A stretch of DNA of 7,274 nucleotides from a bacterium (GTDB taxonomy: Bacteria; JACRDZ01; JAJRWM01): positions 1-7,274 of the forward strand of contig JAJRWM010000057.1 of NCBI GenBank assembly GCA_024276815.1. The letters are read 5' to 3'. Positions 1 to 1,827 of this stretch are shown here, one piece after another (within the stretch, counting starts at the first letter, position 1; each line of letters begins with the position of its first letter). Under the pieces are notes generated by a model. It saw only the letters and a list, made by a program, of their open reading frames with translations. It was not told the DNA's origin and searched no databases. The translations under genes were made by a program, and so were the position numbers.

Positions 1-1067
1 CGTTCTGATAGTTGGCGGGCGTTAGCCGGGGTAAAAAAAACATCTTTGACAATTTTGTAAACCCGTTTCTCCAGGATTTGGTTATTGATAAGCCCCTTGT
101 TGCCGCAAGCGGTCTGTCTTCCCCTTGAGGCTTCACACAGCAAGAAAGTGGCGAGACCGTCGTTTGAAGGAAAAAGTTGGCGCTGACAATGCCCGCAACG
201 CAATAGCGAACCTAAAGGATAGTCATTTTCTGAAGTTTTTTTTTCTCCCCATCGGGAACCGCGCCGCTCTTGAACAGCCAGGTACATCTCCTTGCTGATA
301 ATAGCGTCATGGTTGTTTTCCAGAATGATCCACTCGCTCTCCGGTTTCACCCGCCCCCCCTTGCCTTTCTTGTCGTACTGATTCCAGACGCGGCAGCCGT
401 AATACACCTGGTTAACCAAAATCGCCCTGATGCTGGACTTGCGCCATTTGCTCGCGCTTCTTGGGGGAATCCCCTGTTCGTTAAGATAATTCGCGATTTC
501 ATCATAACTCCTGCCGGCCAGGTAAAGCTCAAATATTTTTTTCACCCGGGGCGCTTCTTCCTGATCAAGCTGAAGGCGGGTCTTAACGATTTCTTTCTCA
601 TTTTCAAAACCAACCACCACCTTGGTATGAGAATAACCATAGGGCGGCTTGCCACCGTTTTCGTTGTGCTCGGCGATGTTTTTCTTCATGCCCTTGATCG
701 TGCCGGCGGAGATGCTGCTCAGATAATAGCGGTCGATTATCCTGACCAGCCCGTTTAACAGTTCCAGAGAGCCATCCTCGGCTACCTGGTCGCGGGAGTA
801 AGTCGTCAGCCCCTGCTGTTCCAGCAGGCTTTTGTAGATCAAGCCCTCGCCGGGCAATTCGCCCACGGCGGACCAGTCATTGACCACAACCGCTTTAAAC
901 GGCGGGTTGGCGCGGCGGGCCGCGGCTAACATCCGCATCAGCGCCGAGGTTGATGAAGACGACGGCTCCTGGTAGACTTTTACGATGTTTAACCGTTTAT
1001 CATCAGCCAGTTTCCGTAAAGTTGGTTCCGATTCTTTTTCCGTTAAATAAAGAGCGCAACGGGCCAC
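1..1067 (-). CDS. Large serine recombinase homologue lacking catalytic residues (partial, C-terminus off the left edge)
   Basis: The frame is open for 355 codons from a GTG at 1067-1065 to the window edge. GAGG lies 7 nt before the GTG, and an in-frame TAA just upstream rules out a longer start. Domain order is that of large serine recombinases: resolvase-like fold (about 1-135), recombinase domain (about 138-250, with GGKPPYGY at 138-145, IFELYLAGRSYDEIANYL at 178-195, WRKSSIRAIL at 208-217 and NQVYYG at 219-224), then a zinc ribbon with C291, C294, C311 and C321. The resolvase part is abnormal. The usual YxRxS motif reads YLTEK (7-11), the loop with the nucleophilic serine and following glutamine is shortened, the DRxxR motif reads DWSAV (64-68), and the later arginine region reads YYLSSIS (114-120). 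Known family members cleave DNA through that serine, so this protein is probably inactive. It may still bind DNA, for example as a regulator or as partner of an active recombinase. The family call is secure; inactivity is inferred. Confidence 0.9.
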   Translation of the reverse strand, partial: MARCALYLTEKESEPTLRKLADDKRLNIVKVYQEPSSSSTSALMRMLAAARRANPPFKAVVVNDWSAVGELPGEGLIYKSLLEQQGLTTYSRDQVAEDGSLELLNGLVRIIDRYYLSSISAGTIKGMKKNIAEHNENGGKPPYGYSHTKVVVGFENEKEIVKTRLQLDQEEAPRVKKIFELYLAGRSYDEIANYLNEQGIPPRSASKWRKSSIRAILVNQVYYGCRVWNQYDKKGKGGRVKPESEWIILENNHDAIISKEMYLAVQERRGSRWGEKKTSENDYPLGSLLRCGHCQRQLFPSNDGLATFLLCEASRGRQTACGNKGLINNQILEKRVYKIVKDVFFTPANARQLSE

Positions 1068-1094
1068 TGTTTTTCCTCGTTTTCCCTAATTCCG

Positions 1095-1124
1095 ATTATA
1101 CCAGCAGATCAATTAGTATGTCGG
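1095..1124 (-). promoter_or_regulatory. Candidate sigma-70 promoter of the recombinase homologue
   Basis: On the minus strand a perfect TATAAT (1095-1100) is preceded by TGG, an extended -10 element. CCGACA (1119-1124) is a 4/6 match to -35 at an 18-bp spacing. Predicted initiation near 1088 gives a leader of about 20 nt that contains the GAGG ribosome binding site before the GTG. Confidence 0.6.
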
Positions 1125-1242
1125 CTCTTTCCCGGTCCTTCTTTACTCTCCCGGCCCTCGACCGCTGAGCGATAAAAACTCAGGCGGTTTAATAAAATTA
1201 TGTCAATTATTGAGAAAGAAGCCTTGTGAGGCGTGATTGGGG

Positions 1243-1258
1243 GCGGCAAAACTGCCGC
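1243..1258. repeat. GC-rich perfect hairpin upstream of the pilin promoter
   Basis: The stem is GCGGCA/TGCCGC (6 bp) with an AAAC loop, followed on the plus strand by GGC and an A-tract. Without a downstream T-run on either strand it does not look like an intrinsic terminator. Its role is unknown. Confidence 0.4.
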
Positions 1259-1270
1259 GGCAAAAAAATA

Positions 1271-1288
1271 ATTGAAAAAATATTCAAT
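1271..1288. repeat. AT-rich inverted repeat, possible operator
   Basis: ATTGAA and TTCAAT arms are separated by 6 nt (AAAATA). The dyad ends 38 bp upstream of the pilin -35 element, a suitable position for an activator site or UP-like element. In such AT-rich DNA it could also arise by chance. Confidence 0.25.
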
Positions 1289-1326
1289 AATACCAACCAG
1301 ATAAGAATCCTTTTAAGCATTGTTGA

Positions 1327-1354
1327 TTGACATCCGAAAAATTAATGTGATAAA
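1327..1354 (+). promoter_or_regulatory. Candidate sigma-70 promoter of the pilin gene
   Basis: A perfect TTGACA -35 (1327-1332) is followed after 16 bp by GATAAA (1349-1354, a 4/6 match to -10). TG at 1346-1347 makes it an extended -10. Initiation would fall near 1361, about 40 nt before the ATG. I found no sigma-54 type GG/GC element, although pilin genes in several bacteria use one. Confidence 0.6.
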
Positions 1355-1401
1355 GGCTCAACAGTAGTAAACGAGGCTTCAAGAAAAGGAGGTGTTAAAT
1401 A

Positions 1402-1827
1402 ATGATGAAACGAGGCGAAAAAGGTTTTACCTTGATCGAACTGATGATCGTTATCGCGATTATCGGGATCCTGGCAGCGGTTGCCATTCCTAACTTCCTG
1501 AGCGCGCGTGGTAAAGCGCAGGACGCCGCGGCTAAAGGCACGCTGGAAGCTATGAAGACAGCTTTGGAAATGTACATGGCATCCCAGGGCTACTATCCGC
1601 AACCGGCTGATGACGCTCTGGCGGCTCTGGAAACAGCCATGAGTGATGACTGGCCTTCCAACATTGACCGGACAAGTACCAATCCCGGCGCTTTAACCGG
1701 TTATCGTGGCGACACATCCGACTACGCTGTCTCAGCTATTGGTCGTGATTCTAGTCATTACTTCCATCTGACCAATGCCGGTACCTTGACTGGTCCTGAC
1801 TCAAACTCATCGATTGACGACCCCTAA
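1402..1827 (+). CDS. Type IV prepilin / pseudopilin (class III signal peptide)
   Basis: The 141-residue product is a structural subunit of a type IV pilus or a related pseudopilus. It has a short 8-residue basic leader, a prepilin peptidase site at G8|F9 (KGFTLIEL) and the invariant Glu5 of the mature protein (E13). An uninterrupted hydrophobic helix follows to about residue 32 (ending IPNFLSAR), then the amphipathic segment KAQDAAAKGTLEAMKTALEMY. The Ser/Thr/Asp-rich C-terminal domain has no cysteine, so there is no classical D-loop disulfide. The Q-G-Y-Y-P segment after the helix is also seen in GspG/PilA-like small pilins. AAAGGAGGTG at 1385-1394 fits ATG 1402 or ATG 1405; the first gives the better spacing. 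With its own promoter and terminator the gene looks monocistronic and strongly expressed. No assembly gene (pilB, pilC, pilD, pilQ) is in the window, so pilus and type II secretion pseudopilus cannot be separated with certainty. Confidence 0.95.
   Translation: MMKRGEKGFTLIELMIVIAIIGILAAVAIPNFLSARGKAQDAAAKGTLEAMKTALEMYMASQGYYPQPADDALAALETAMSDDWPSNIDRTSTNPGALTGYRGDTSDYAVSAIGRDSSHYFHLTNAGTLTGPDSNSSIDDP

Follow-up and report, generated by a model that had tools for sequence, protein, structure and literature searches.

A large-serine-recombinase-derived protein that has lost its catalytic residues and coiled coil and may persist as a DNA-binding protein

In a little-known bacterial lineage, a large serine integrase, probably from a mobile element, such as a prophage, of which little is left, appears to have lost recombination and been retained as a DNA-binding protein. 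Judged by alignment, the protein has lost its nucleophile, arginine cluster and dimer-joining coiled coil, and has retained the Recombinase domain and zinc-ribbon cysteines. The protein would dimerise via its N-terminal domain and the long helix E, and would bind an att-like site without cutting it; once bound, it could control its own gene, remaining genes of the element or the divergently oriented pilin gene, either as a repressor or by occupying the site. This explanation is favoured because both recombination-specific modules are lost and the main DNA-binding module is kept. We give even chances to the view that a prophage-derived large serine recombinase (LSR) has been reduced to a DNA-binding protein that regulates by occupancy. 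More tentative is a fuller version, in which the LSR has been exapted to a sequence-specific transcriptional or site-occupancy regulator, with the cleavage and synapsis modules lost and att binding kept, perhaps for pilin control.

The window, that is, the whole stretch of 7,274 nucleotides analysed, is the entire contig C222 of a host assembly of 2.39 Mb (246 contigs, 91% complete). The LSR-derived ORF is on the minus strand, with a GTG start at 1067, a GAGG-type ribosome site upstream and an in-window frame of 1067..3. Window positions 1-141 are identical to the final 141 bases of C71, another contig of the assembly, and this exact 141-bp overlap sequence is present in no other contig of the assembly. 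Read across the overlap, the ORF is a single open frame of 420 intact codons (420 aa) with its stop at L016:8209. The original prediction of a serine recombinase homologue without stop or frameshift holds on both counts: the ORF and the LSR domain evidence place it on the minus strand as residues 1-135 of the ORF from GTG 1067, and the frame is open over all 420 codons, including the C71 part. The features of the gene are as follows.

1..1067, minus strand: large-serine-recombinase-derived gene, residues 1-355 of 420, from the ORF and the 141-bp overlap; the last 65 codons are on C71 (L016:8209-8404)
672..1067, minus strand: degenerate catalytic (Resolvase-fold) domain, residues 1-132, without a PF00239 match at E<=1, from alignment to active LSRs and the AlphaFold fold
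1035..1049, minus strand: YLTEK where YxRxS is expected, with the subsequent Ser/Gln loop deleted, from alignments
858..875, minus strand: WSAVGE, residues 65-70, where (L)SRFAR / DRxxR is expected (R68->A, R71->E), from alignments
708..737, minus strand: IDRYYLSSIS, within the long helix E; the Arg of other serine recombinases is Ser already in active relatives, from alignment
258..560, minus strand: Recombinase (DNA-binding) domain PF07508, residues 170-270, E 1.6e-31, branch length normal
54..218, minus strand: zinc ribbon, residues 284-338, with C291/C294/C311/C321 present (PF13408 at E 0.0013, sub-cut-off; invariant Cys) and the coiled coil expected next absent by segment lengths

Family membership is carried by the C-terminal modules. 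Pfam profiles detect the PF07508 Recombinase domain at E 1.6e-31 (109 bits vs a cut-off of 21.1) and the PF13408 zinc ribbon at E 0.0013, below its cut-off, and PHROGs assigns the protein to phage integrases (phrog_95, 3.8e-56). The proposed comparison of the N-terminal domain with PF00239 gives a divided answer: the profile search returns no Resolvase match at E<=1, but AlphaFold predicts a retained Resolvase fold there, in a model (mean pLDDT 80.6) built with aligned active relatives as a guide. The best solved-structure match of this model is the SPbeta integrase 9y66 (Z 17.8 over 317 residues), and TP901-1 3bvp scores Z 12.4; the catalytic domain alone superposes on the phiC31 catalytic domain 9teq over 95 residues at 2.5 A (Z 10.1). 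By homology the protein is a member of the LSR family and, judged from its sequence, it is not an active serine integrase.

Ordinary integrases from Elusimicrobia, Omnitrophica, Chloroflexota and viral contigs are the nearest relatives, with 25-31% identity. Active relatives read ALYARVSSERQAEKDLSIPAQLKALR...ILVWKLSRFARNREDSILYKSLLRK...LLEGIIEVIDEFYSANLSQDTIRGM.NENA.RGF.NGG.APYGY, and the matching sequence here is ALYLTEKESEPTLRKLADDK...AVVVNDWSAVGELPGEGLIYKSLLEQQ...LLNGLVRIIDRYYLSSISAGTIKGMKKNIAEHNENGGKPPYGY. Alignments to active LSRs show that R8, S10 and Q19 are replaced or deleted, the Gln loop included, and that R68 has become Ala67 and R71 Glu70. Positions R8/S10/R68/R71 are R, S, R, R in 74 of the 87 distinct sequences compared, which means in 74/74 relatives with a complete N-terminal domain; the others lack these residues because their ORF or contig is truncated or frame-split, and one truncated relative, the L063 companion, additionally has Pro at R71. 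The predicted conversion of YxRxS to YLTEK is borne out, as are the GGKPPYGY junction and the missing Ser/Gln loop, at about 8-12 residues by alignment compared with the ten or more first estimated. For DRxxR, the loss itself stands, both arginines being gone (W65-S-A-V-G-E70; R68 -> A67, R71 -> E70), but the motif is WSAVGE and not DWSAV: the D of 'DWSAV' is not equivalent to the D of DRxxR, and the closest active relatives have Ser or Asn there (LSRFAR, LNRFAR). The later-helix Arg -> Ser change, which had been counted as a further loss, is instead, by alignment, shared with the active sister group (EFYSANL).

An active enzyme with an alternative nucleophile, T9 beside S10 in an alternative register, was considered and rejected because the active site would be without Arg. 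As a separate observation, the closest LSR subfamily (L050-L064), otherwise intact, carries Ser or Asn for the Asp of DRxxR, a naturally occurring variant of the textbook motif.

The second module affected is the coiled coil, through which integrase dimers are reported to make contact and come together (PMC5814800). From the last zinc-ribbon Cys to the C-terminal helix there are 70 residues in this protein vs 144-146 in six relatives; by these segment lengths, a deletion of about 75 residues has removed the coiled coil. The zinc-ribbon cysteines C291, C294, C311 and C321 align with Cys of every relative compared. The deletion breakpoint falls at about residues 349-373, its exact position being uncertain, and the contig boundary (codon 355/356) is inside this interval. 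An assembly or sequence artefact could be suspected on this account, since the assembly is of metagenome type, the gene is split over two of its contigs and the boundary coincides with the gap interval. We consider it scarcely credible: the catalytic-domain changes are in the interior of C222, the overlap occurs in no other contig, and the gap is independent of the join because it can be read in C71 alone, where residues 310-420 are contiguous. The position of the boundary within the gap interval does make a second allele in the source population possible, and both coiled-coil alleles may therefore coexist in the sampled population. The coiled-coil loss is outside the coordinates covered by the original prediction and was overlooked there.

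The main rival to retention as a DNA-binding protein, unlikely in our judgement, is that this is the decaying integrase of a collapsed prophage, under no selection, with a frame still open through recency or luck. Rates along the gene bear on this directly. Active subfamily members are most alike in the catalytic domain (66-74% identity, with 42% in the Recombinase domain); identity of the present protein to them is 27-29% in the catalytic domain and 31% in the Recombinase domain. On a fixed tree, its catalytic-domain terminal branch is 2.33, compared with 0.05-0.40 in the active subfamily, 0.25-0.27 in L025/L026 and 1.21 in the outgroup L023. The Recombinase-domain branch, 0.92, is inside the range of active members. 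The zinc-ribbon branch is also fast (2.69), the four Cys being present nonetheless. The bootstrapped catalytic/Recombinase rate ratio is 3.1 on this branch (1.1-6.0, a wide interval) vs 0.45 (0.29-0.59) in active members.

When neutral decay of an active relative is simulated, ignoring indels and the timing of loss, a stop first arises at about 96% identity, and by 45% identity 200/200 runs have stops in the catalytic domain; the argument presumes that most catalytic-domain divergence postdates the loss of function. Against simple decay, the observed gene has diverged by about 70% at the amino-acid level in its most conserved domain without a stop and carries three in-frame deletions, its zinc cysteines are kept, and the GC1/2/3 of its catalytic part (0.55/0.42/0.69) has the codon periodicity of a coding gene of the host genome. 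Selection beyond neutral decay is likely to act on the gene, because the frame is open, codon periodicity is kept and the Recombinase domain changes at a pace normal for the family. The results point to retention under changed constraint, though they are no substitute for dN/dS, as no orthologue was found. The idea of a pseudoenzyme with another role thus survives in the form of DNA-binding retention, which fits a Recombinase domain at family rate, an accelerated catalytic domain, an intact predicted fold and an open frame.

The surroundings of the gene are part of the case for decay. On C71, facing the gene, are two singletons with intact ORFs, of 728 aa (L016:4923-7109) and 246 aa (L016:7278-8018). 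The 728-aa protein has a weak tail match (phrog_400, 0.0047) and is absent from all other genomes searched and from the phage collection. Past these singletons are mannosyltransferase-like membrane proteins. The C71 region looks like a prophage remnant on this weak evidence, and the element looks collapsed because only the two singletons stand beside the gene, with no other recognisable phage genes, between otherwise host-like ones. Frame-broken or N-terminally truncated LSRs are, in addition, common among relatives (L030, L034, L047, L056). The lack of an orthologue also counts on the side of decay: the same losses were sought in whole-genome searches and in viral and genome contig scans, as had been suggested, and none was found, leaving a single sequence. 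Scans of viral_contigs and genome_contigs specific to this protein gave no relative, the phage and plasmid collections held only ordinary LSRs (up to about 30% identity), and a wide alignment gave no usable patterns.

On the other side of the gene, the window contains the following features.

1068..1401, no strand: divergent intergenic region of 334 bp, common with the pilin gene; candidate regulatory region
1124-1095, minus strand: TG-TATAAT promoter-like site
1402..1827, plus strand: type IV major pilin, the divergent neighbour and a host gene (PF07963/PF08334; 60-62% orthologues in the phylum)

Pilin orthologues in two other phylum members are inside pilB-pilT-pilC-pilA-pilD, and the host pilB, pilT and pilC are on C42 without a major pilin. 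The major pilin gene (window 1402-1827) is separated from the pilB-pilT-pilC-pilD genes with which it forms an operon in those two members, and is found by itself next to the recombinase gene (cf. L112, L105, L106). Other C71 or window genes show no synteny at the pilin locus of relatives. No att repeats were found flanking the region, no operator was found for the protein, and PADLOC gave no matches.

A dead integrase could also serve by covering att sites, so blocking integration or excision by related elements in a dominant-negative, immunity-like manner. Its kept Recombinase domain and lost cutting and dimer-joining parts would suit that role, and PDB titles indicate that the complexes of catalytically dead phiC31 integrase S12A with att DNA are stable. 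No related active element or prophage is seen in the genome, however, and without a coiled coil the protein could only cover sites, trapping of a synapse being impossible; we regard this explanation as improbable.

Among the roles named in the original prediction were those of directionality factor and structural partner to an active recombinase. Such a non-catalytic partner, comparable to those of tandem recombinase cassettes, has a natural parallel in Chloroflexota, where at L063 a degenerate LSR (R71 -> Pro) lies directly upstream of an intact one. In the present genome, 91% complete, PF00239 matches nothing and PF07508 matches no other protein, and the inspection of the flanks that had been recommended finds no recombinase adjoining the gene on C71 or in the window. 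A partner or directionality-factor role is argued against because no other serine recombinase was found in the genome by these profiles, and the coiled coil for inter-dimer contact is absent; we consider a partner role very unlikely.

The L063 protein (L063:3-791, Chloroflexota IRC4_bin_30, directly upstream of the intact LSR L063:846-2516) is a second natural dead LSR. It resembles ours in having R71 replaced (by Pro) and the Recombinase domain kept, but its ORF is truncated at the contig start, R68 and the Gln loop are present, the zinc ribbon is absent and the neighbour is active; the two are not specifically related.

The nearest known proteins are LSRs of an Elusimicrobiota-Omnitrophota-Chloroflexota-phage group (L057, L058, L060, L061, L062, L022/L064, L050-L053), which share the domain order, PF07508, the zinc ribbon and the NGG.PPYGY junction at 25-31% identity; they have YARVSS, the Gln loop, SRFAR and the coiled coil, whereas the present protein has none of these. 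The Elusimicrobia active LSRs L057 and L061 adjoin genes whose products look, by eye only, like replication-relaxation DNA-binding proteins, a hint of a mobile element family yet to be characterised. The SPbeta integrase (SprA/YokA; PDB 9dxh, 9y66) is alike in structure (Z 17.8 over 317 residues) and in sequence (phmmer 1.5e-10 over the Recombinase domain), but is active, with a coiled coil and an RDF. The literature search, in which journal coverage was incomplete, returned no described LSR of this kind, a weak negative.

The closest analogy for the proposed role is MrpR of prophage SPbeta, which has a tyrosine-recombinase fold, has lost catalysis and acts as a DNA-binding repressor (PMC10516654); the present protein would be its counterpart among serine recombinases. 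The likeness would lie in a recombinase fold without catalysis serving as a DNA-binding protein; MrpR differs in belonging to an unrelated family, with a tyrosine-recombinase fold, and in being a shown repressor, the role here being proposed from sequence. The kept Recombinase domain lends support to an MrpR-type function, and the protein may be a sequence-specific binder or repressor.

Phages use serine integrases to insert their DNA into chromosomes; the enzymes are also widely employed in genome engineering, and dead mutants made in the laboratory (S12A) serve their study. The joint loss of both recombination modules in a natural LSR is striking, though a single copy was found and its role is a proposal. 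If the proposal is true, a natural LSR shorn of its cleavage and synapsis modules would show that the att-binding module is viable alone, as MrpR does for the tyrosine class. It would also be a compact att-site binder of natural origin, and would allow one to test whether regulators arise recurrently from phage integrases.
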